Source: Owenia fusiformis | Lineage: Eukaryota > Annelida > Polychaeta > Sabellida > Oweniidae | Direction of reading: 5' to 3' | Length of the DNA stretch: 64,000 bases | Assembly: GCA_903813345.2 (NCBI GenBank) | Contig: CAIIXF020000008.1 | Span: forward strand, 34,744,867-34,808,866 | Part shown: positions 733 through 64,000 of the stretch, piece by piece | Position numbering within the stretch: the stretch's first letter is position 1 | Layout: each line of letters opens with the position of its first letter | Notes under the pieces: model-generated | The model's input: only the letters and a program-made list of their open reading frames with translations | Told to the model about the DNA's origin: nothing | The model's database searches: none | Translations under genes and position numbers: made by a program

Positions 733-737
733 TAATA
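733..737 (+). other. Empty MITE site in short unit 1
   Basis: The core end GTGACTAATA joins directly to GCCACATGG with a single TAATA and no insert. The unit is about 853 bp. Its flank carries the class B variants CCTCAATTCTGGTCG before and TTCATCACCCC after the joint. Confidence 0.9.
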
Positions 738-1585: not shown

Positions 1586-1590
1586 TAATA
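1586..1590. repeat. TAATA target-site duplication, left copy
   Basis: TAATA immediately precedes the left TIR and recurs at 2056-2060 after the right TIR. In short units the same flanks meet across one TAATA, supporting an insertion that duplicated 5 bp (up to 7 bp if C and G on either side are included). Confidence 0.75.
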
Positions 1591-1616
1591 GGCAAAACTG
1601 CCCTAATTCACGTCAC
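1591..1616 (+). repeat. Left terminal inverted repeat of the MITE
   Basis: 26 bp, pairing imperfectly with 2032-2055. The shared blocks in order are GGC, AAAA, TGCCCTAAT and ACGTCAC. The blocks are separated by single-base or two-base gaps between the two ends. Confidence 0.85.
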
Positions 1617-1792
1617 CATACTAGTCAATGGGCAAAAGGGCAAACGCCTGACTTTTTATCTCGAGTTATGGATTTATGTGGCCTCACTGGCCTATCTGAG
1701 GTTCTAAAGCTATGTCTAAGCTACATCTTGACACTAAACTCAATAGGGGCCAATCATCTACTTTTTGAAATAATTGGTCAATTGTGACACTA

Positions 1793-1808
1793 CCCCCTCT
1801 CTCTGCAG
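1793..1808 (+). promoter_or_regulatory. Splice-acceptor-like tract in the MITE
   Basis: CCCCCTCTCTCTGCAG is a pyrimidine run ending in CAG. A second similar motif, TTTTTTCTATTCAG, lies at about 2013-2026. Both recur in nearly all MITE copies in the same orientation. This is a resemblance to 3' splice sites only; nothing in the window shows transcription. Confidence 0.25.
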
Positions 1809-2025
1809 ACACAAATTGAAATTCACAAAAATGAAGGCAAAATTAATACGCCACTTGACTCGAAATTTTCCTTCAGATAACCCAAATAAACGCATTTTCA
1901 GAAGAAATGGCATGTTGCCATTGCAAAAAGATTACAACTGTGCCTACATACTAGCTTACTGACTCGTCATGATCACAATTGTGTTGGGACTACATTTATT
2001 TTTGAATACTACTTTTTTCTATTCA

Positions 2026-2039
2026 GCGGAAGTGACGTA
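2026..2039 (+). promoter_or_regulatory. ETS/CRE-like motif at the MITE right end
   Basis: GCGGAAGTGACGTA joins an ETS-like core (GGAAGT) to a CRE-like half (TGACGT) and overlaps the start of the right TIR. ETS-CRE composites of this layout are known in animal promoters. The motif is present in all 43 MITE copies I can see. Function is inferred from the motif alone. Confidence 0.25.
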
Positions 2040-2055
2040 TTAGGGCATTTTGGCC
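2032..2055 (-). repeat. Right terminal inverted repeat of the MITE
   Basis: 24 bp ending TTTTGGCC. This is the end that forms both sides of the palindrome centre at 59465-59472. The opposite (left) TIR forms the outer edge of the whole array at 61266. Confidence 0.85.
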
Positions 2056-2918
2056 TAATAGCCACATGGTTGGATGATTTCTGGCTTTAAATTGCGTTTT
2101 TTCCAATTTACTAGAGTTTTTCAAGTAGTTTTGTGCAGTTTAAGAATATTCTGACAGCAATTATGAAAAATATGGCTACTTCATTACCCCTGGGGTCATT
2201 TTTCCAAGAACCCAATGGTTTTCCTTTAAATTTGACTAGTTTTTCATTTACATCATGAAATCCACTGCCTGATGGTGACATTTTTCAGTATCGTGTCAAG
2301 AAATTGAGTATTTTATTGCATATTGCGATTTTTAGCCAAAATCACTGAACCGTGAACCAGAAAATTGGACAAATTTGGCCCACTTTTTGGCAAAATCTTA
2401 CTAAAATCATCACTTTTTCATACTTTATTCCATTCAACAACCTCCTGATTTGAAAAATGATGACAAATTTGATCAGTTTTGACTCTGGCCTAGAGAATTG
2501 GGACTTTTGAGATATTTTTAGCTCGAATGTAGTCATTCAGAGTGAACAAATACATCAAAATTGACACTTAACTCACCAATTTCTGACTGCACCCCCGATA
2601 TGTACCTTCTTTCTATACTGGAAACCATAAGATGGAAATTCAATCTTTATGATGAATAGCAACTCGTTGGCTTCCCCATTTACGACAACAAATGACATTT
2701 AGGGGTCACTAAGGACAAAATTGTAGCCAAATATCGTCAAAATCAGTGGTTTTTGGGGTAAAAAGCGAAAACTGCTGATTCAGCAAAAACATTAAATTTG
2801 TTCATGAAAATTCCCCTTTTTGCCTCCGTCCAAAATATGTTTCACACTAATAAACTTCAATTCTGGTCGATTCTGAGTAGTTTTAAAAAATTTTGGTCAC
2901 TTTCACATGTGACTAATA
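2056..2918 (+). repeat. Representative satellite core (863 bp, without MITE)
   Basis: The stretch between two successive MITEs, shared by every unit, full or short. It begins TAATAGCCACATGG and ends TCACATGTGACTAATA. The two ends form a short imperfect inverted repeat (TAGCCACATG against TAGTCACATG), so the core may itself derive from an element with inverted ends; this is inference. It contains a 13-nt inverted repeat TGCTGATTCAGCA. A 64-codon minus-strand frame recurs in most class A copies but is cut by an in-frame stop in most or all class B copies, and I recognise no domain in it. I see no promoter, RNA gene or known transposon family in the core. Confidence 0.85.
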
Positions 2919-4239: not shown

Positions 4240-4244
4240 TAATA
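4240..4244 (+). other. Empty MITE site in short unit 2
   Basis: Single TAATA between core end and core start. The flanking variants are class B on both sides. Several one-base losses occur within a few hundred bases (for example near 4083, 4375 and 4505). Confidence 0.9.
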
Positions 4245-10200: not shown

Positions 10201-13200
10201 CTAAGGACAAAATTGTAGCCAAATATCGTCAAAATCAGTGGTTTTTGGGGTAAAAAGCGAAAACTGCTGATTCAGCAAAAACATTAAATTTGTTCATGAA
10301 AATTCCCCTTTTTGCCTCCGTCCAAAATATGTTTCACACTAATAAACTCAATTCTGGGCGATTCTGAGTAGTTTTAAAAAATTTTGGTCACTTTCACATG
10401 TGACTAATAGGCAAAACTGCCCTAATTCACGTCACCATACTAGTCAATGGGCAAAAGGGCAAACGCCTGACTTTTTATCTCGAGTTATGGATTTATGTGG
10501 CCTCACTGGCCTATCTGAGGTTCTAAAGCTATGTCTAAGCTACATCTTGACACTAAACTCAATAGGGGCCAATCATCTACTTTTTGAAATAATTGGTCAA
10601 TTGTGACACTACCCCCTCTCTCTGCAGACACAAATTGAAATTCACAAAAATGAAGGCAAAATTAATACGCCACTTGACTCGAAATTTTCCTTCAGATAAC
10701 CCAAATAAACGCATTTTCAGAAGAAATGGCATGTTGCCATTGCAAAAAGATTACAACTGTGCCTACATACTAGCTTACTGACTCGTCATGATCACAATTG
10801 TGTTGGGACTACATTTATTTTTGAATACTACTTTTTTCTATTCAGCGGAAGTGACGTATTAGGGCATTTTGGCCTAATAGCCACATGGTTGGATGATTTC
10901 TGGCTTTAAATTGCGTTTTTCCAATTTACTAGAGTTTTTCAAGTAGTTTTGTGCAGTTTAAGAATATTCTGACAGCAATTATGAAAAATATGGCTACTTC
11001 ATTACCCCTGGGGTCATTTTTCCAAGAACCCAATGGTTTTCCTTTAAATTTGACTAGTTTTTCATTTACATCATGAAATCCACTGCCTGATGGTGACATT
11101 TTTCAGTATCGTGTCAAGAAATTGAGTATTTTATTGCATATTGCGATTTTTAGCCAAAATCACTGAACCGTGAACCAGAAAATTGGACAAATTTGGCCCA
11201 CTTTTTGGCAAAATCTTACTAAAATCATCACTTTTTCATACTTTATTCCATTCAACAACCTCCTGATTTGAAAAATGATGACAAATTTGATCAGTTTTGA
11301 CTCTGGCCTAGAGAATTGGGACTTTTGAGATATTTTTAGCTCGAATGTAGTCATTCAGAGTGAACAAATACATCAAAAATTGACACTTAACTCACCAATT
11401 TCTGACTGCACCCCCGATATGTACCTTCTTTCTATACTGGAAACCATAAGATGGAAATTCAATCTTTATGATGAATAGCAACTCGTTGGCTTCCCCATTT
11501 ACGACAACAAATGACATTTAGGGGTCACTAAGGACAAAATTGTAGCCAAATATCGTCAAAATCAGTGGTTTTTGGGGTAAAAAGCGAAAACTGCTGATTC
11601 AGCAAAAACATTAAATTTGTTCATGAAAATTCCCCTTTTTGCCTCCGTCCAAAATATGTTTCACACTAATAAACTTCAATTCTGGGCGATTCTGAGTAGT
11701 TTTAAAAAATTTTGGTCACTTTCACATGTGACTAATAGGCAAAACTGCCCTAATTCACGTCACCATACTAGTCAATGGGCAAAAGGGCAAACGCCTGACT
11801 TTTTATCTCGAGTTATGGATTTATGTGGCCTCACTGGCCTATCTGAGGTTCTAAAGCTATGTCTAAGCTACATCTTGACACTAAACTCAATAGGGGCCAA
11901 TCATCTACTTTTTGAAATAATTGGTCAATTGTGACACTACCCCCTCTCTCTGCAGACACAAATTGAAATTCACAAAAATGAAGGCAAAATTAATACGCCA
12001 CTTGACTCGAAATTTTCCTTCAGATAACCCAAATAAACGCATTTTCAGAAGAAATGGCATGTTGCCATTGCAAAAAGATTACAACTGTGCCTACATACTA
12101 GCTTACTGACTCGTCATGATCACAATTGTGTTGGGACTACATTTATTTTTGAATACTACTTTTTTCTATTCAGCGGAAGTGACGTATTAGGGCATTTTGG
12201 CCTAATAGCCACATGGTTGGATGATTTCTGGCTTTAAATTGCGTTTTTCCAATTTACTAGAGTTTTTCAAGTAGTTTTGTGCAGTTTAAGAATATTCTGA
12301 CAGCAATTATGAAAAATATGGCTACTTCATTACCCCTGGGGTCATTTTTCCAAGAACCCAATGGTTTTCCTTTAAATTTGACTAGTTTTTCATTTACATC
12401 ATGAAATCCACTGCCTGATGGTGACATTTTTCAGTATCGTGTCAAGAAATTGAGTATTTTATTGCATATTGCGATTTTTAGCCAAAATCACTGAACCGTG
12501 AACCAGAAAATTGGACAAATTTGGCCCACTTTTTGGCAAAATCTTACTAAAATCATCACTTTTTCATACTTTATTCCATTCAACAACCTCCTGATTTGAA
12601 AAATGATGACAAATTTGATCAGTTTTGACTCTGGCCTAGAGAATTGGGACTTTTGAGATATTTTTAGCTCGAATGTAGTCATTCAGAGTGAACAAATACA
12701 TCAAAAATTGACACTTAACTCACCAATTTCTGACTGCACCCCCGATATGTACCTTCTTTCTATACTGGAAACCATAAGATGGAAATTCAATCTTTATGAT
12801 GAATAGCAACTCGTTGGCTTCCCCATTTACGACAACAAATGACATTTAGGGGTCACTAAGGACAAAATTGTAGCCAAATATCGTCAAAATCAGTGGTTTT
12901 TGGGGTAAAAAGCGAAAACTGCTGATTCAGCAAAAACATTAAATTTGTTCATGAAAATTCCCCTTTTTGCCTCCGTCCAAAATATGTTTCACACTAATAA
13001 ACCTCAATTCTGGTCGATTCTGAGTAGTTTTAAAAAATTTTGGTCACTTTCACATGTGACTAATAGGCAAAACTGCCCTAATTCACGTCACCATACTAGT
13101 CAATGGGCAAAAGGGCAAACGCCTGACTTTTTATCTCGAGTTATGGATTTATGTGGCCTCACTGGCCTATCTGAGGTTCTAAAGCTATGTCTAAGCTACA

Positions 13201-14388: not shown

Positions 14389-14393
14389 TAATA
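14389..14393 (+). other. Empty MITE site in short unit 3
   Basis: Single TAATA with no insert, and class B variants on both sides of the joint. The preceding full unit (MITE at 13066) also carries class B markers, so this may be one converted patch. Confidence 0.9.
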
Positions 14394-19226: not shown

Positions 19227-19231
19227 TAATA
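19227..19231 (+). other. Empty MITE site in short unit 4
   Basis: Single TAATA. The left flank carries class B variants (CCTCAATTCTGGTCG), but the right flank carries the class A form TTCATTACCCC, so this short unit is a mosaic. Confidence 0.9.
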
Positions 19232-21413: not shown

Positions 21414-21418
21414 TAATA
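21414..21418 (+). other. Empty MITE site in short unit 5
   Basis: Single TAATA. The left flank is class A (CTTCAATTCTGGGCG) and the right flank is class B (TTCATCACCCC). This is the reciprocal mosaic of short unit 4. Confidence 0.9.
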
Positions 21419-53700: not shown

Positions 53701-56700
53701 TTGATCAGTTTTGACTCTGGCCTAGAGAATTGGGACTTTTGAGATATTTTTAGCTCGAATGTAGTCATTCAGAGTGAACAAATACATCAAAAATTGACAC
53801 TTAACTCACCAATTTCTGACTGCACCCCCGATATGTACCTTCTTTCTATACTGGAAACCATAAGATGGGAAATTCAATCTTTATGATGAATAGCAACTCG
53901 TTGGCTTCCCCATTTACGACAACAAATGACATTTAGGGGTCACTAAGGACAAAATTGTAGCCAAATATCGTCAAAATCAGTGGTTTTTGGGGTAAAAAGC
54001 GAAAACTGCTGATTCAGCAAAAACATTAAATTTGTTCATGAAAATTCCCCTTTTTGCCTCCGTCCAAAATATGTTTCACACTAATAAACCTCAATTCTGG
54101 TCGATTCTGAGTAGTTTTAAAAAATTTTGGTCACTTTCACATGTGACTAATAGCCACATGGTTGGATGATTTCTGGCTTTAAATTGCGTTTTTCCAATTT
54201 ACTAGAGTTTTTCAAGTAGTTTTGTGCAGTTTAAGAATATTCTGACAGCAATTATGAAAAATATGGCTACTTCATCACCCCTGGGGTCATTTTTCCAAGA
54301 ACCCAATGGTTTTCCTTTAAATTTGACTAGTTTTTCATTTACATCATGAAATCCACTGCCTGATGGTGACATTTTTCAGTATCGTGTCAAGAAATTGAGT
54401 ATTTTATTGCATATTGCAATTTTTAGCCAAAATCACTGAACCGTGAACTAGAAAATTGGACAAATTTGACCCACTTTTTGGCAAAATCTTACTAAAATCA
54501 TCACTTTTTCATACTTTATTCCATTCAACAACCTCCTGATTTGAAAAATGATGACAAATTTGATCAGTTTTGACTCTGGCCTAGAGAATTGGGACTTTTG
54601 AGATATTTTTAGCTCGAATGTAGTCATTCAGAGTGAACAAATACATCAAAAATTGACACTTAACTCACCAATTTCTGACTGCACCCCCGATATGTACCTT
54701 CTTTCTATACTGGAAACCATAAGATGGGAAATTCAATCTTTATGATGAATAGCAACTCGTTGGCTTCCCCATTTACGACAACAAATGACATTTAGGGGTC
54801 ACTAAGGACAAAATTGTAGCCAAATATCGTCAAAATCAGTGGTTTTTGGGGTAAAAAGCGAAAACTGCTGATTCAGCAAAAACATTAAATTTGTTCATGA
54901 AAATTCCCCTTTTTGCCTCCGTCCAAAATATGTTTCACACTAATAAACCTCAATTCTGGTCGATTCTGAGTAGTTTTAAAAAATTTTGGTCACTTTCACA
55001 TGTGACTAATAGGCAAAACTGCCCTAATTCACGTCACCATACTAGTCAATGGGCAAAAGGGCAAACGCCTGACTTTTTATCTCGAGTTATGGATTTATGT
55101 GGCCTCACTGGCCTATCTGAGGTTCTAAAGCTATGTCTAAGCTACATCTTGACACTAAACTCGATAGGGGCCAATCATCTACTTTTTGAAATAATTGGTC
55201 AATTGTGACACTACCCCCTCTCTCTGCAGACACAAATTGAAATTCACAAAAATGAAGGCAAAATTAATACGCCACTTGACTCGAAATTTTCCTTCAGATA
55301 ACCCAAATAAACGCATTTTCAGAAGAAATGGCATGTTGCCATTGCAAAAAGATTACAACTGTGCCTACATACTAGCTTACTGACTCGTCATGATCACAAT
55401 TGTGTTGGGACTACATTTATTTTTGAATACTACTTTTTTCTATTCAGCGGAAGTGACGTATTAGGGCATTTTGGCCTAATAGCCACATGGTTGGATGATT
55501 TCTGGCTTTAAATTGCGTTTTTTCCAATTTACTAGAGTTTTTCAAGTAGTTTTGTGCAGTTTAAGAATATTCTGACAGCAATTATGAAAAATATGGCTAC
55601 TTCATCACCCCTGGGGTCATTTTTCCAAGAACCCAATGGTTTTCCTTTAAATTTGACTAGTTTTTCATTTACATCATGAAATCCACTGCCTGATGGTGAC
55701 ATTTTTCAGTATCGTGTCAAGAAATTGAGTATTTTATTGCATATTGCAATTTTTAGCCAAAATCACTGAACCGTGAACTAGAAAATTGGACAAATTTGAC
55801 CCACTTTTTGGCAAAATCTTACTAAAATCATCACTTTTTCATACTTTATTCCATTCAACAACCTCCTGATTTGAAAAATGATGACAAATTTGATCAGTTT
55901 TGACTCTGGCCTAGAGAATTGGGACTTTTGAGATATTTTTAGCTCGAATGTAGTCATTCAGAGTGAACAAATACATCAAAAATTGACACTTAACTCACCA
56001 ATTTCTGACTGCACCCCCGATATGTACCTTCTTTCTATACTGGAAACCATAAGATGGGAAATTCAATCTTTATGATGAATAGCAACTCGTTGGCTTCCCC
56101 ATTTACGACAACAAATGACATTTAGGGGTCACTAAGGACAAAATTGTAGCCAAATATCGTCAAAATCAGTGGTTTTTGGGGTAAAAAGCGAAAACTGCTG
56201 ATTCAGCAAAAACATTAAATTTGTTCATGAAAATTCCCCTTTTTGCCTCCGTCCAAAATATGTTTCACACTAATAAACCTCAATTCTGGTCGATTCTGAG
56301 TAGTTTTAAAAAATTTTGGTCACTTTCACATGTGACTAATAGGCAAAACTGCCCTAATTCACGTCACCATACTAGTCAATGGGCAAAAGGGCAAACGCCT
56401 GACTTTTTATCTCGAGTTATGGATTTATGTGGCCTCACTGGCCTATCTGAGGTTCTAAAGCTATGTCTAAGCTACATCTTGACACTAAACTCGATAGGGG
56501 CCAATCATCTACTTTTTGAAATAATTGGTCAATTGTGACACTACCCCCTCTCTCTGCAGACACAAATTGAAATTCACAAAAATGAAGGCAAAATTAATAC
56601 GCCACTTGACTCGAAATTTTCCTTCAGATAACCCAAATAAACGCATTTTCAGAAGAAATGGCATGTTGCCATTGCAAAAAGATTACAACTGTGCCTACAT

Positions 56701-59464
56701 ACTAGCTTACTGACTCGTCATGATCACAATTGTGTTGGGACTACATTTATTTTTGAATACTACTTTTTTCTATTCAGCGGAAGTGACGTATTAGGGCATT
56801 TTGGCCTAATAGCCACATGGTTGGATGATTTCTGGCTTTAAATTGCGTTTTTCCAATTTACTAGAGTTTTTCAAGTAGTTTTGTGCAGTTTAAGAATATT
56901 CTGACAGCAATTATGAAAAATATGGCTACTTCATCACCCCTGGGGTCATTTTTCCAAGAACCCAATGGTTTTCCTTTAAATTTGACTAGTTTTTCATTTA
57001 CATCATGAAATCCACTGCCTGATGGTGACATTTTTCAGTATCGTGTCAAGAAATTGAGTATTTTATTGCATATTGCAATTTTTAGCCAAAATCACTGAAC
57101 CGTGAACTAGAAAATTGGACAAATTTGACCCACTTTTTGGCAAAATCTTACTAAAATCATCACTTTTTCATACTTTATTCCATTCAACAACCTCCTGATT
57201 TGAAAAATGATGACAAATTTGATCAGTTTTGACTCTGGCCTAGAGAATTGGGACTTTTGAGATATTTTTAGCTCGAATGTAGTCATTCAGAGTGAACAAA
57301 TACATCAAAAATTGACACTTAACTCACCAATTTCTGACTGCACCCCCGATATGTACCTTCTTTCTATACTGGAAACCATAAGATGGGAAATTCAATCTTT
57401 ATGATGAATAGCAACTCGTTGGCTTCCCCATTTACGACAACAAATGACATTTAGGGGTCACTAAGGACAAAATTGTAGCCAAATATCGTCAAAATCAGTG
57501 GTTTTTGGGGTAAAAAGCGAAAACTGCTGATTCAGCAAAAACATTAAATTTGTTCATGAAAATTCCCCTTTTTGCCTCCGTCCAAAATATGTTTCACACT
57601 AATAAACCTCAATTCTGGTCGATTCTGAGTAGTTTTAAAAAATTTTGGTCACTTTCACATGTGACTAATAGGCAAAACTGCCCTAATTCACGTCACCATA
57701 CTAGTCAATGGGCAAAAGGGCAAACGCCTGACTTTTTATCTCGAGTTATGGATTTATGTGGCCTCACTGGCCTATCTGAGGTTCTAAAGCTATGTCTAAG
57801 CTACATCTTGACACTAAACTCGATAGGGGCCAATCATCTACTTTTTGAAATAATTGGTCAATTGTGACACTACCCCCTCTCTCTGCAGACACAAATTGAA
57901 ATTCACAAAAATGAAGGCAAAATTAATACGCCACTTGACTCGAAATTTTCCTTCAGATAACCCAAATAAACGCATTTTCAGAAGAAATGGCATGTTGCCA
58001 TTGCAAAAAGATTACAACTGTGCCTACATACTAGCTTACTGACTCGTCATGATCACAATTGTGTTGGGACTACATTTATTTTTGAATACTACTTTTTTCT
58101 ATTCAGCGGAAGTGACGTATTAGGGCATTTTGGCCTAATAGCCACATGGTTGGATGATTTCTGGCTTTAAATTGCGTTTTTCCAATTTACTAGAGTTTTT
58201 CAAGTAGTTTTGTGCAGTTTAAGAATATTCTGACAGCAATTATGAAAAATATGGCTACTTCATCACCCCTGGGGTCATTTTTCCAAGAACCCAATGGTTT
58301 TCCTTTAAATTTGACTAGTTTTTCATTTACATCATGAAATCCACTGCCTGATGGTGACATTTTTCAGTATCGTGTCAAGAAATTGAGTATTTTATTGCAT
58401 ATTGCAATTTTTAGCCAAAATCACTGAACCGTGAACTAGAAAATTGGACAAATTTGACCCACTTTTTGGCAAAATCTTACTAAAATCATCACTTTTTCAT
58501 ACTTTATTCCATTCAACAACCTCCTGATTTGAAAAATGATGACAAATTTGATCAGTTTTGACTCTGGCCTAGAGAATTGGGACTTTTGAGATATTTTTAG
58601 CTCGAATGTAGTCATTCAGAGTGAACAAATACATCAAAAATTGACACTTAACTCACCAATTTCTGACTGCACCCCCGATATGTACCTTCTTTCTATACTG
58701 GAAACCATAAGATGGGAAATTCAATCTTTATGATGAATAGCAACTCGTTGGCTTCCCCATTTACGACAACAAATGACATTTAGGGGTCACTAAGGACAAA
58801 ATTGTAGCCAAATATCGTCAAAATCAGTGGTTTTTGGGGTAAAAAGCGAAAACTGCTGATTCAGCAAAAACATTAAATTTGTTCATGAAAATTCCCCTTT
58901 TTGCCTCCGTCCAAAATATGTTTCACACTAATAAACCTCAATTCTGGTCGATTCTGAGTAGTTTTAAAAAATTTTGGTCACTTTCACATGTGACTAATAG
59001 GCAAAACTGCCCTAATTCACGTCACCATACTAGTCAATGGGCAAAAGGGCAAACGCCTGACTTTTTATCTCGAGTTATGGATTTATGTGGCCTCACTGGC
59101 CTATCTGAGGTTCTAAAGCTATGTCTAAGCTACATCTTGACACTAAACTCGATAGGGGCCAATCATCTACTTTTTGAAATAATTGGTCAATTGTGACACT
59201 ACCCCCTCTCTCTGCAGACACAAATTGAAATTCACAAAAATGAAGGCAAAATTAATACGCCACTTGACTCGAAATTTTCCTTCAGATAACCCAAATAAAC
59301 GCATTTTCAGAAGAAATGGCATGTTGCCATTGCAAAAAGATTACAACTGTGCCTACATACTAGCTTACTGACTCGTCATGATCACAATTGTGTTGGGACT
59401 ACATTTATTTTTGAATACTACTTTTTTCTATTCAGCGGAAGTGACGTATTAGGGCATTTTGGCC
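47751..59464 (+). repeat. Class B array block, nearly invariant
   Basis: Full units repeat at exactly 1329 bp (MITE starts 48837, 50166, 51495, 52824, then 56342 to 57671 to 59000); one unit is 1 bp longer in a T run. Every core carries GAACTAG, TTTGACCCAC, GCAATTTTT and TTCATCACCCC, and every MITE carries CTCGATAGG. Such uniformity over about 11.7 kb next to a variable block indicates recent amplification or conversion, or over-collapse or duplication during assembly. Confidence 0.85.
54148..54152 (+). other. Empty MITE site in short unit 6
   Basis: The only short unit inside the class B block, with class B variants on both sides. Apart from the missing insert it is like its neighbours. Confidence 0.9.
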
Positions 59465-59472
59465 AATACACG
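59465..59472. other. Palindrome centre between two facing right TIRs
   Basis: The 8-bp spacer AATACACG lies between TTTTGGCC (end of the forward MITE) and GGCCAAAA (start of the inverted MITE). No TAATA is present on either side, unlike every other MITE/core joint in the array. The orientation switch therefore happens exactly at the transposon end, not inside a core. Confidence 0.9.
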
Positions 59473-59937
59473 GGCCAAAATGCCCTAATACGTCACTTCC
59501 GCTGAATAGAAAAAAGTAGTATTCAAAAATAAATGTAGTCCCAACACAATTGTGATCATGACGAGTCAGTAAGCTAGTATGTAGGCACAGTTGTAATCTT
59601 TTTGCAATGGCAACATGCCATTTCTTCTGAAAATGCGTTTATTTGGGTTATCTGAAGGAAAATTTCGAGTCAAGTGGCGTATTAATTTTGCCTTCATTTT
59701 TGTGAATTTCAATTTGTGTCTGCAGAGAGAGGGGGTAGTGTCACAATTGACCAATTATTTCAAAAAGTAGATGATTGGCCCCTATTGAGTTTAGTGTCAA
59801 GATGTAGCTTAGACATAGCTTTAGAACCTCAGATAGGCCAGTGAGGCCACATAAATCCATAACTCGAGATAAAAAGTCAGGCGTTTGCCATTTTGCCCAT
59901 TGACTAGTATGGTGACGTGAATTAGGGCAGTTTTGCC
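59473..59937 (-). mobile_element. Inverted MITE copy, inner
   Basis: 465 bp on the minus strand. Its right TIR faces the palindrome centre, and its left TIR joins an inverted core through TATTA (reverse of TAATA) at 59938-59942. It shares with the outer inverted copy a substitution not seen in forward copies (TTTGCCATTTTGCCC where forward copies imply TTTGCCCTTTTGCCC). Confidence 0.9.
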
Positions 59938-60801
59938 TATTAGTCACATGTGAAAGTGACCAAAATTTTTTAAAACTACTCAGAATCGCCCAGAATTGAA
60001 GTTTATTAGTGTGAAACATATTTTGGACGGAGGCAAAAAGGGGAATTTCCATGAACAAATTTAATGTTTTTGCTGAATCAGCAGTTTTCGCTTTTTACCC
60101 CAAAAACCACTGATTTTGACGATATTTGGCTACAATTTTGTCCTTAATGACCCCTAAATGTCATTTGTTGTCGTAAATGGGGAAGCCAACGAGTTGCTAT
60201 TCATCATAAAGATTGAATTTTCCATCTCATGGTTTCCAGTATAGAAAGAAGGTACATATCGGGGGTGCAGTCAGAAATTGGTGAGTTAAGTGTCAATTTT
60301 TGATGTATTTGTTCACTCTGAATGACTACATTCGAGCTAAAAATATCTCAAAAGTCCCAATTCTCTAGGCCAGAGTCAAAACTGATCAAATTTGTCATCA
60401 TTTTTCAAATCAGGAGGTTGTTGAATGGAATAAAGTATAAAAAAGTGATGATTTTAGTAAGATTTTGCCAAAAAGTGGGCCAAATTTGTCCAATTTTCTG
60501 GTTCATGGTTCAGTGATTTTGGCTAAAAATCGCAATATGCAATAAAATACTCAATTTCTTGACACGATACTGAAAAATGTCACCATCAGGCAGTGGATTT
60601 CATGATGTAAATGAAAAACTAGTCACATTTAAAGGAAAACCATTAAGTTCTTGGAGAAATGACCCCAGGGGTAATGAAGTAGCCATATTTTTCATAATTG
60701 CTGTCAGAATATTCTTAAACTGCACAAAACTACTTGAAAAACTCTAGTAAATTGGAAAAACGCAATTTAAAGCCAGAAATCATCCAACCATGTGGCTATT
60801 A
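59938..60801 (-). repeat. Inverted satellite core
   Basis: About 864 bp including TATTA at both ends. It carries class A diagnostic bases (GAACCA rather than GAACTA, GCG in the GCGATTTTT position, CATTACCCC) plus private substitutions. This makes it the most diverged core in the window, as expected at a satellite array edge. Confidence 0.9.
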
Positions 60802-61266
60802 GGCCAAAATGCCCTAATACGTCACTTCCGCTGAATAGAAAAAAGTAGTATTCAAAAATAAATGTAGTCCCAACACAATTGTGATCATGACGAGTCAGTA
60901 AGCTAGTATGTAGGCACAGTTGTAATCTTTTTGCAATGGCAACATGCCATTTCTTCTGAAAATGCGTTTATTTGGGTTATCTGAAGGAAAATTTCGAGTC
61001 AAGTGGCGTATTAATTTTGCCTTCATTTTTGTGAATTTCAATTTGTGTCTGCAGAGAGAGGGGGTAGTGTCACAATTGACCAATTATTTCAAAAAGTAGA
61101 TGATTGGCCCCTATTGAGTTTAGTGTCAAGATGTAGCTTAGACATAGCTTTAGAACCTCAGATAGGCCAGTGAGGCCACATAAATCCATAACTCGAGATA
61201 AAAAGTCAGGCGTTTGCCATTTTGCCCATTGACTAGTATGGTGACGTGAATTAGGGCAGTTTTGCC
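60802..61266 (-). mobile_element. Inverted MITE copy at the array edge
   Basis: Complete 465-bp copy with both TIRs. The inner side has TATTA (60797-60801). The outer side ends GGCAGTTTTGCC and is followed at once by unrelated sequence ACGATGACCC, without the TAATA-type duplication. The array therefore stops at the base where the transposon stops. Confidence 0.9.
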
Positions 61267-61308
61267 ACGATGACCCACTTAATTTTCCTGCGCACATTTC
61301 TTGCGCAT

Positions 61309-61338
61309 GAGAGTAAAATCAACTTCCGGTTTACTCTC
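61309..61338. repeat. Perfect 9-bp hairpin just outside the array
   Basis: GAGAGTAAA (61309-61317) and TTTACTCTC (61330-61338) are exact reverse complements around a 12-nt loop. The hairpin lies 43 bp from the array edge. No T run follows that would suggest a Pol III terminator, and its role is unknown. Confidence 0.6.
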
Positions 61339-61765
61339 ACACAGGAAGTCAGTGTAAAATTGTTCAAAATAGGTCCCACAAATTCTTCTCATATGCCATA
61401 ACCATGCTGTTTTGTTGCTTATTTTACATTTCAATATTGATATAAGATCCCTATGTATCATTTCCCTTAAATTGGTGAAATTTACACCATTAATAAGTGA
61501 GAACATACCCCCTCATTGGAGCAGACGTTTTGTACGACTTTTCGTTGACATTGATAACTGGTCCCGGGCAACTGGCAGTGGTTCATCAACTCATAGTATC
61601 CCTATCATGTCATCATGTAGATAGTCTTTAAAAAACGATTATTTGAGCTAATGACACTTAAATATACAACATTTGGTAGCCCTGGATGTCTTGGCGCTGA
61701 GCTAGTTTGACACCCTTTGGAGGGAATTCCCTGGGAAACCCCTTGAGGTCATTGAGTGCATATGA
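61339..61765. other. Right flank, no gene seen
   Basis: Unique A+T-rich sequence with no convincing open frame, RNA gene or named repeat. The short open frames present are small and lack plausible composition or splice signals. Confidence 0.5.
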
Positions 61766-61786
61766 TTAAATAAATAATTTATTTAA
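61766..61786. repeat. A/T palindrome of 21 nt
   Basis: TTAAATAAAT and ATTTATTTAA are exact reverse complements around a single A. Its pure A/T composition makes chance or slippage plausible. Confidence 0.6.
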
Positions 61787-62427
61787 TAAATTTATCTGGT
61801 GTTTTCCAGTGGTTTATTTCATTTAAGCCAAAAGGACATCAAAACAATTAATAACCAGTCTTACCCTGTGATTCAAGCACTGCCAAGCACATCCAAGCAT
61901 CAATCAAGCACCATTGGGACTTTATTCCAGCACCATTTAAAGGCAGAAGCAGATCTAGCAAAATCCAGATGGTTACTCTTTACAAAAATTGTTTAGTTTC
62001 CAAATATTTTGGACTCATAGCATTCCTTGTCATGCCTATTTTCATGGGCTTTCAATATTCTATTTCAATATTCCAAAGTACATGTAGCTCAGCTGTATTA
62101 TTTGAGAAAAACTTAAGGATTTTTACAATAATACATTCTATTTTAATTTTATGGTTACCATTTTTATTTGGGAGAATTTAAACAATTTTCCCCATTTTGG
62201 CACATTGAATCCTAATTGATAATTTCACCAGTTAGGTATCATGGAGCTTTAGGGAGATATCATATTTTAATTTTAGCCCGAAGGAATATACATGTACATG
62301 TATTGGTAGGTCAACTGTACATGTCGCTTGCAATTTGTCTCTCCCAATAGATCTGATTCTCCCTTTAACTGTTCTTTAAATAATTTGAATGTTATACTAT
62401 GTAATTTTTAAATTAATATGTAATATG
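61787..62427. other. Right flank, no gene seen; contains a 16-nt palindrome
   Basis: No supported coding region. A 70-codon plus-strand frame at 61969-62181 is hydrophobic through T-rich codons but has no neighbours, splice context or recognisable domain, so I treat it as chance. ATACATGTACATGTAT at 62288-62303 is a perfect 16-nt palindrome. Confidence 0.5.
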
Positions 62428-62503
62428 CCGCACTGGGACCTAAGGACCCATGTGCCACTGCTGTACCGCACTGGGACCTAAGGACCCATGTGCCACTGCT
62501 GTA
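62428..62503 (+). repeat. Perfect 38-bp tandem duplication
   Basis: 62428-62465 and 62466-62503 are identical 38-bp copies starting CCGCACTGGGACC and ending CTGCTGTA. They are followed 13 bp later by an AATAAA-rich stretch. Short tandem units before an A-rich tail are typical of the 3' ends of some non-LTR retrotransposons, but no reverse transcriptase sequence is visible here. Confidence 0.85.
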
Positions 62504-62516
62504 AAAGTGTGTGAAA

Positions 62517-62534
62517 ATAAATAAAAAAATAAAC
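62517..62534 (+). promoter_or_regulatory. AATAAA-rich stretch, possible poly(A) signal or retroposon tail
   Basis: AATAAATAAAAAAATAAA contains overlapping AATAAA hexamers on the plus strand, directly after the 38-bp duplication. It could be a polyadenylation signal or the degraded A-rich tail of a retroposed copy. No upstream exon was identified. Confidence 0.3.
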
Positions 62535-62582
62535 ATTTTAGATGAAACTATGTTTATGCTTCTATAAAAAGCCAAAATAAAA

Positions 62583-62695
62583 GTGAAATGTGAATACTAT
62601 ATCAAGTTATTTGGGAATTGAACCCAATCCAAGGAATGATTAGTTCCATGGTGTAAGCCTACACAACTTGCAGGATATTTGTATAATCACATCAC
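62583..62695 (-). repeat. tRNA-like dispersed repeat, copy 1 (SINE-like)
   Basis: On the minus strand 62670-62603 folds as a 68-nt degenerate tRNA. The acceptor arms are CAAGTTG and TAACTTG (one G-T pair). There is a GGAA/TTCC anticodon stem around the 7-nt loop CTAATCA. The T arm is perfect, TTGGG around loop TTCAATT and CCCAA. The D region is short and abnormal, and base 37 is C, so this is not a functional tRNA. A second copy at about 63333 resembles it beyond the tRNA part, which suggests a tRNA-derived SINE family. Confidence 0.45.
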
Positions 62696-63075
62696 ATTAC
62701 TTTTGACTTTTCCTTGAAAATACTTTCCGGTTTCACAATGACATGGGACCTTCTAACAAAGATAAGTACATGATGTAGCATTATATGTTTGTTGGTGTAC
62801 ACTAAACTTCCAGCTTGGTGCATCAGAAATCAAAGTTGGGTGGAGTGTGCCAGGGTACCATCATTCTTTCTCATTGTCATGTTGCCTGGGATCACCAGAA
62901 ATCATAATCAGGTTGGGTGTGCCAGAGTTGAAAAAAATAAAACAATCCAAAATTTAAATTTTTCCCTTTGCATTTCTCAATAAATATTTTTTCAGAATAT
63001 TCTTCAATTTTATACTTAAAAGTTAAACATTGAGACAAATATAATCTAAATATGTATTTAAAATAATTATCTCAC
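62696..63075. other. Right flank with an imperfect internal direct repeat
   Basis: The stretches near 62820-62858 and 62890-62930 both hold CAGAAATCA followed by GTTGGGTG and GTGCCAG, indicating an old local duplication. No gene is supported. A 64-codon plus-strand frame across it (62789-62983) is low in complexity and unsupported. Confidence 0.4.
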
Positions 63076-63169
63076 CATAGGGGATGGTTGGGTAGTGCTT
63101 GGAGGACCACTGACGAATCTTCTGCTACTTGCAACAACTCTGCATCGGTCTCATAATCTTTAAAAACTG
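63076..63169 (-). CDS. Candidate internal coding exon of an unidentified host gene
   Basis: On the minus strand a continuous frame of about 31 codons reads VFKDYETDAELLQVAED and continues to ALPNHPL. It ends in CTATG followed by GTGAGA, a good 5' splice site at 63075. Two candidate acceptors precede it (CGCAG before 63169, or CAGCAG before 63166). The stronger-looking acceptor CTACAG at 63184 would include an in-frame stop. Composition is balanced and protein-like, unlike the surrounding A+T-rich DNA. I do not recognise the protein. The plus strand is also open for 27 codons after CACCATAG, so orientation is not certain. Any other exons are not recognised or lie beyond the right edge. Confidence 0.4.
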
Positions 63170-63332
63170 CTGCGTTTTTTTAACTGTAGATAAAAAAATA
63201 AAGATATTCATACAATATATTAAATTGACCCTTATTTTAATGTGGTTTAGTTAAAATTAGTGTACGCCTCGGAGTGTTCAGTAACCCTGGCCTGGATAGT
63301 TTATCCTTACATTTTATCAACTTCAAGATAAT

Positions 63333-63660
63333 TGAAATGTAGATACAAATATCAAGTTGTTTGAGAATCGAACCCAGTCCAAGGAATGTTTAGTTCCATG
63401 GTGTAAGCGCACTGGTGGATCCAGGGGATCCAAGGGGGGCCATGCCCCCTCCCCCCTTATGGGGGCCCAGAAAAAAAGTTAGGGTCCCAAAAATTTTTGT
63501 GCACATGACTTAGCATTTCTGGACTTTTTAGGTCAAATTATAAAAAAATAGGCCTAATTTTTGGTTTTAAATCTTTTTGCCGACATGTAATGTGCCCCCC
63601 TCTGTTGGCTTCTGGATCCGCAAGTGAAGCCTACATAACTTTGAATGATATTTGTATATT
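63333..63660 (-). repeat. tRNA-like dispersed repeat, copy 2, split by an insertion
   Basis: Matches copy 1 through ATCAAGTT, GAACCCA, TCCAAGGAATG and TTAGTTCCATGGTGTAAGC. It resumes after the insertion with AAGCCTACATAACTT and GATATTTGTATA. The minus-strand T arm GGGTTCGATTC fits the Pol III B-box pattern better than copy 1. Copy 1 serves as the uninterrupted reference showing where the 217-bp insertion entered. Confidence 0.5.
63410..63626 (+). mobile_element. Short non-autonomous hAT-like element (217 bp)
   Basis: The left end CACTGGTGGATCCAGG and right end CTGGATCCGCAAGTG form imperfect inverted repeats around the GGATCCAG block, a terminus known from many hAT-type non-autonomous elements in invertebrates. 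It carries the usual G-run/C-run stretch near the left end (about 63432-63468) and no coding capacity. It interrupts the tRNA-like repeat between GTGTAAGC and AAGCCTAC; AAGC is present on both sides, so at least 4 bp of the target look duplicated, short of the 8 bp typical for hAT. The ends are diverged, so it is probably old. Confidence 0.6.
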
Positions 63661-63881
63661 ATAAAGACATTGTGTTTTATTTCAAGCTCTCACATGAATT
63701 CCCAAATTAATAGGCTAATTAAAATAATCTACTCAAGAAAGCTAAATTTTTGCATGACACTCATGACTTGATGAGTAAAGTGGCAACAAGGCCTGTAGAG
63801 AGTAAATAGGAAAATTTCAACTTTTTCTGAGCTATCAAGGCAGCATTTGGCTTAATATCTTCTTTGACATACCTTTTTTCT
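63661..63881. other. Right flank end, no gene seen
   Basis: A+T-rich sequence with no supported open frame or RNA gene. Confidence 0.5.
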
Positions 63882-64000
63882 TAAAATGTAAGGATAAACT
63901 ATCAATTTCAGCATTAAGAAGTGTAAATTCAGTTCAAAGCTTCAAAAAGGGGAAATCCACTTTTATATAACAGTATATCAGCACATCTTGGATTGCTTTT

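Follow-up and report, generated by a model that had tools for sequence, protein, structure and literature searches.

A MITE-like element inside a satellite monomer of Owenia fusiformis, with filled and empty units in one array

Satellite DNA with transposons inside it is already known (PMC2581405; PMC12628747; PMC5139131). Among the closest known systems is the satellite DNA of Messor ants, which contains the MITE IRE-130 and the mariner element Mboumar (PMC2581405; the original work is that of Palomeque et al., 2006, as cited in PMC2581405, PMC5139131 and PMC12628747). As outlined there, five mariner copies occupy one identical TA site of the ant satellite, a laboratory test gave no strong preference for that target, and adjacent mariner copies were suggested to have co-transposed the satellite between them (PMC2581405). 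Transposons inserted in satellite arrays and MITE-satellite composites have also been reviewed (PMC12628747; PMC5139131), and the array junctions of one bivalve satellite lie within a palindrome according to the same literature (PMC5139131).

The locus described here is a tandem array within a window of 64,000 nt (the whole stretch of DNA that was analysed; Owenia fusiformis contig CAIIXF020000008.1, positions 34,744,867-34,808,866, forward strand). Like the Messor satellite (PMC2581405), it holds a MITE-like element inside satellite DNA, with repeated copies at an identical site. However, the Messor mariner makes a TA duplication and has copies with intact transposase, whereas the present 465-bp element has a 5-bp TAATA duplication and no long ORF; also unlike the ant case, the present array combines 43 copies at one site with empty sites alongside and with breaks exactly at element ends. 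Xstir and miDNA4 of Xenopus and the pearl family of bivalves are likewise MITE-satellite composites, but in these, as the reviews present them, the tandem repeats lie inside the MITE or derive from it, while here a MITE-like element lies inside a satellite monomer (PMC12628747; PMC5139131). None of the titles and abstract openings listed in searches of the open-access literature described filled monomers next to empty ones with linked alleles in their flanks. The history that we consider probable, with some assurance, is one insertion of a MITE-like element into a satellite monomer, followed by amplification of the filled monomer and survival of some empty units. Bovine satellite 1.711b offers a parallel, in that a monomer with a transposon-like insert was amplified as a new composite monomer, as proposed here; its insert is longer and retrovirus-like, unlike the present one.

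Organisation of the array and its insert

With one core and one insert as BLAST queries, a core of approximately 857 bp was found 48 times and an insert of 465 bp 43 times between positions 1 and 61266 of the window, which begins within the array, the first core being clipped by the window edge. The array is a satellite: 47 successive plus-strand cores lie head-to-tail and are 97.7-100% identical to the reference core. Its principal features are the following.

1-61266, no strand: tandem array of 48 cores (47 plus, 1 minus) and 43 inserts (41 plus, 2 minus)
1586-1590, plus strand: left TAATA of the target duplication
1591-2055, plus strand: focal insert, 465 bp, GGC...GGCC, bounded by terminal inverted repeats (TIRs), GGCAAAACTGCCC...GGGCATTTTGGCC
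1591-1616, plus strand: 5' TIR, 26 nt
2032-2055, minus strand: 3' TIR, 24 nt
2056-2060, plus strand: right TAATA of the target duplication
2061-2918, plus strand: example core with inserts on either side, closing TAATA included
61267-64000, no strand: non-array flank

The insert is a discrete, MITE-like and probably non-autonomous TIR element with a 5-bp TAATA duplication, situated inside a satellite monomer; a MITE in the strict sense has many solitary copies, each with a duplication of its own. Aligned from the first base, its TIR pair (GGCAAAACTGCCCTAATTCACGTCAC versus GGCCAAAATGCCCTAATACGTCAC) has an alignment score of 32, compared with a maximum of 22 across 5000 dinucleotide shuffles (0/5000 as high), and the original prediction of a 465-bp insert with TIRs and a TAATA duplication at 1586-2060 is borne out with exact coordinates. 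TAATA is found to the left of all 41 plus-strand inserts and to the right of 40, the exception being the last insert, which ends at 59464 (both sides in 40/41). The insert is without a long ORF of its own; one insert-core unit contains three ORFs of at least 60 aa (64, 105 and 62 aa), the longest of which, taken from an equivalent unit, had no Pfam match, and a Pfam search with four ORFs gave no match. Exact patterns of the TIRs, the insert interior and the core had no matches in viral_contigs and genome_contigs, which hold viruses and prokaryotes only, a result that says little.

Known target duplications are TWA for PIF/Harbinger, TA for Tc1/mariner and TTAA for piggyBac elements. The array breaks described below place the ends of the present element at GGC and GGCC, and with these ends its duplication is TAATA; the breaks, at GGCC, GGCC and GGC, support the 5-bp reading independently of the insertion site. 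A TA (2-bp) or TTAA duplication was rejected by inspection, as it does not reproduce the empty site, and so was a TWA (3-bp) duplication, for which asymmetric ends would be required. The position of TAATA at the centre of a 21-bp near-palindrome is new here: in the target CATGTGACTAATAGCCACATG, 9 of 10 pairs match about the middle base of the duplication. Such a palindrome occurs at about 1e-4 of the centres in shuffled cores, yet 7.75% of shuffled cores have one somewhere, and the target fits either a symmetric transposase complex or a cruciform-prone site, between which one site cannot discriminate. A 7-bp direct repeat, CTAATAG, is present at both insert junctions. At 1580-2066, the inverted repeats of the insert run on into the target palindrome, so that an inverted repeat of 28 nt (86%) spans the filled junction.

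These features bear on the alternative that no transposon is involved: insert and core would together form a single satellite unit of 1.33 kb, in which deletions between short direct repeats produced the empty junctions. This alternative can draw on the preponderance of filled junctions (40 of 46 on the plus strand), on the 7-bp repeat as a ready deletion substrate, and on four weak matches between insert and core (best E 0.009 at lenient settings). However, the insert-core similarity does not rise above that of shuffled sequence (29/300 shuffles reach the score), and the TIRs at the exact ends, the target duplication and the three array breaks on those same ends, next to non-core sequence, leave the alternative with next to no credibility.

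The cores fall into two blocks, block 1 comprising c00-c35 and block 2 c36-c46, and single-base gaps between units occur in 27 of 861 alignment columns. Between 44858 and 47508, where the two blocks meet, the units are irregular: one insert has a multi-base local change, the next two have single-base indels, and cores c36 and c37 show clustered differences. This may be an assembly join.

Beyond the array, the 2.7-kb flank (61267-64000) contains no solitary insert copy: at a BLAST threshold of E 0.5 the insert had no match and the core had three weak ones, no better than chance (E 0.16-0.49), and the TIRs matched at 11 of 17 bases at best. Neither Rfam on 58000-64000 nor ARAGORN over the whole window found anything. 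Two diverged repeat copies, at 62590-62700 and 63330-63410, share by eye the sequence GAAT(T/C)GAACCCA(A/G)TCCAAGGAATG, which we take to resemble a reversed tRNA-type B box, perhaps of a SINE or another MITE; a perfect 38-bp tandem repeat in two copies lies at 62428-62503.

Filled and empty junctions

Among the 46 plus-strand core junctions, 40 are filled and six are empty, which upholds the expectation that filled and unfilled monomers coexist in one array and that six units retain the intact single TAATA.

733-737, plus strand: empty site 1, a single TAATA in a core-core junction
4240-4244, plus strand: empty site 2
14389-14393, plus strand: empty site 3
19227-19231, plus strand: empty site 4, with mixed flanks (CT left, T right)
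21414-21418, plus strand: empty site 5, with mixed flanks (TG left, C right)
54148-54152, plus strand: empty site 6, in block 2, with the SNP haplotype of its filled neighbours

All six empty junctions have one TAATA and no extra base, the 19-bp motif of the empty junction starting at 728, 4235, 14384, 19222, 21409 and 54143. All 43 inserts, in turn, point the same way with respect to the core beside them, and every junction of insert and core is at the same base; this single orientation and position points to one insertion followed by co-amplification. Repeated independent insertions at the same target in many monomers, the palindrome acting as a hot spot, might be suspected from the near-palindromic target centred on the duplication (9/10 pairs) and from the A/G polymorphism of the insert at alignment column 152, the two alleles of which occur mainly on two core backgrounds. 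A palindromic target should, however, accept the element in both orientations, whereas 43/43 inserts have the same one, and identity of the inserts with the focal copy ranges from 99.6 to 100%, such that we regard this explanation as highly improbable.

The history of the empty sites was approached through flanking alleles, those on the left being core alignment columns 798 and 809 and that on the right column 123. The 31 filled junctions that follow block-1 cores carry, by hand count, TG (20), a gap plus G (7), TT (2), CG (1) and CT (1) on the left. In the main contrast, which comprises the 35 junctions flanked on either side by block-1 cores (5 empty, 30 filled), CT on the left is found at 4/5 empty versus 1/30 filled junctions, C on the right at 4/5 versus 0/30, and one or both at 5/5 versus 1/30 (p=1.8e-5). 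Adding the junction that borders block 2 weakens this to 5/5 versus 2/31 (p=5.6e-5), and all 46 junctions give 6/6 versus 11/40 (p=0.0013); since the units are related by duplication, these p values are indicative only. In block 2, CT and C are present at all nine filled junctions and at the one empty junction, and the empty site at 54148 is therefore uninformative. Given the 5/5 versus 1/30 contrast, the block-1 empty junctions appear to share one lineage, two of them with mixed flanks. The insert at 13065, in block 1, has CT on its left, T on its right and allele G itself, and its junction looks like an intermediate; of the five block-1 inserts with allele G, one has CT on the left, one has TT and three have neither.

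The original prediction had left two histories side by side, namely one insertion with amplification of the filled monomer, or precise loss of the insert from a filled unit. The linkage of flanking SNPs at the block-1 empty junctions favours the first, in which the empty units would be survivors. Repeated independent losses are disfavoured, as the block-1 empty junctions have a common, non-local haplotype; had the insert been excised recently and separately from five typical filled neighbours, the junctions would have other flanks. A single loss, in which the filled monomer is ancestral, one unit lost its insert exactly and the resulting empty unit spread, keeps a place because the alleles cannot be rooted, the allele network being unrooted. 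The loss could proceed by slippage across the CTAATAG direct repeats, aided by the inverted repeats, or by footprint-free excision, and the 7-bp direct repeat together with the 28-nt, 86% inverted repeat is a plausible deletion substrate. The empty junction at 54148 carries the haplotype of its filled neighbours, as loss would allow, and the edge unit is filled and has alleles in common with block 1: its core (c47, 59938-60795) has 9 private substitutions (~1%) and block-1 alleles, and its two adjoining inserts have one private change, common to both. If this core is taken as outgroup, the CT|C alleles of the empty sites are derived, as the loss model predicts. On the other hand, cut-and-paste excision usually leaves a footprint and 6/6 empty sites are without one, and the model requires an extra rare event; we consider a single precise loss unlikely.

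The preferred account, one insertion followed by amplification, would run as follows; its sequence of steps, the way in which amplification occurred and the part of a transposase acting in trans are inferred. A 465-bp non-autonomous TIR transposon would have entered one ~857-bp monomer of an existing satellite array, presumably by means of transposase supplied in trans, at the centre of the 21-bp near-palindrome and with duplication of TAATA. The 1.33-kb filled monomer would then have multiplied through processes usual in tandem arrays, namely unequal exchange, conversion and possibly circles, and have nearly displaced the 857-bp unfilled monomer, left as six scattered core-core junctions. In the simplest history, the recipient core would have had CT|C and the incoming insert allele G, a state to which block 2 would have stayed close; TG, T and allele A of the insert would later have appeared among the filled units that came to dominate block 1. 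Contrary to this account are the block-2 empty site, which is the same as its filled neighbours, the three block-1 allele-G inserts with neither CT nor TT on the left, and the absence of a solitary insert copy from the 2.7-kb flank.

A comparison of diversity lends weak support to the view that some of the core variation predates the insert, in which case lower insert polymorphism would be expected. Besides single-copy differences, only two sites vary in the insert (alignment columns 48 and 152). When shared SNPs away from homopolymer runs are taken together with the private changes of the edge core, there are 15 changes in 857 bp of core versus 2 in 465 bp of insert (one-sided p=0.03); this count excludes core columns 502 and 577, which are at homopolymer runs and with which it becomes 17 versus 2 (one-sided p=0.016). 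For shared SNPs alone the difference is not significant, at 6 versus 2 (p=0.42), or 8 versus 2 (p=0.26) with two further homopolymer sites. A contrast of 25 versus 3 (p=0.003) was discarded, as the private differences of c36 and c37 all fall close together, within 3-9 columns, and have the appearance of misalignment.

Array breaks and the inverted block

Beyond what had originally been noted, the right end of the array contains an inverted insert-core-insert block, with which the array stops.

59000-59464, plus strand: final insert of the plus strand, after which AATACACG stands in place of TAATAGCC
59465-59472, no strand: AATACACG, an 8-bp spacer that separates the 3' ends of two oppositely oriented inserts
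59473-61266, minus strand: inverted insert-core-insert block (inserts 59473-59937 and 60802-61266, core 59938-60795)

Three array breaks, at 59464, 59473 and 61266, the last being the end of the inverted block, fall exactly on insert ends (GGCC, GGCC and GGC), beside non-core sequence. The chance that two independent random breaks would both fall on an insert end in a 1322-bp unit is about 2e-6. The exact position of the three breaks suggests that transposase acted on inserts already in the array, and a transposase using the ends of different inserts could account for all three. In the fuller form of this idea, the ends of the element, once carried by the array, would have become the points at which the array is cut: a transposase supplied from another part of the genome would have cleaved insert ends in pairs and joined them anew, producing both the inverted block and a right array edge on an insert end. 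The idea is put forward tentatively in either form, as possible although on balance doubtful. A precedent is the alternative (reversed-ends) transposition of maize Ac/Ds, in which rearrangements use the termini of two nearby elements (PMC3744419). The present breaks are similar in involving such termini, but in maize 8-bp junction duplications confirm the reaction (PMC3744419), while the outer flanks of the present block have only 3 bp (ACG) in common.

Both outer ends of the block, at 59473 and 61266, are TIR ends, as composite transposition would have it. No 5-bp duplication flanks the block (ACACG versus ACGAT), its outer flanks AATACACG and ACGATGACCC sharing only ACG, and a plain composite insertion with such a duplication is hence unsupported. 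The right edge would also follow, with no need of transposase, from homologous recombination of an array insert with a solitary one; however, the 8-bp spacer between two 3' ends is not easily explained in this way. A sequencing fold-back was rejected, because a distant unit matches the block better (11/1794 mismatches for the best unit elsewhere) than does its mirrored neighbour (20/1794).

The same comparison bears on the more general alternative of an assembly artefact, in which breaks, blocks or empty sites would derive from mis-joined reads, and which may be partly true beside the main account. The many single-base gap columns between units (27/861) and the irregular units at 44.9-47.5 kb, the meeting point of blocks 1 and 2, are in its favour. 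Against it, the inverted block matches distant units better than its mirror image, and the empty junctions recur six times, with a linked haplotype in block 1, making an artefact very unlikely as an explanation.

Implications for satellite turnover

Coexisting filled and unfilled monomers mark how a satellite unit is replaced, with the insert tagging one lineage, and the linked SNPs reveal exchange among the units of the array. Transposon-driven movement of satellite DNA in Messor ants is raised in PMC2581405 as a prediction still awaiting test. If the edges of the present array are transposase-made, the locus would be a direct test of whether satellite arrays are moved or cut by the DNA transposons they contain. 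The satellite would then be a mobile composite, the size, orientation and position of which are set partly by transposition and not by unequal crossing-over alone.
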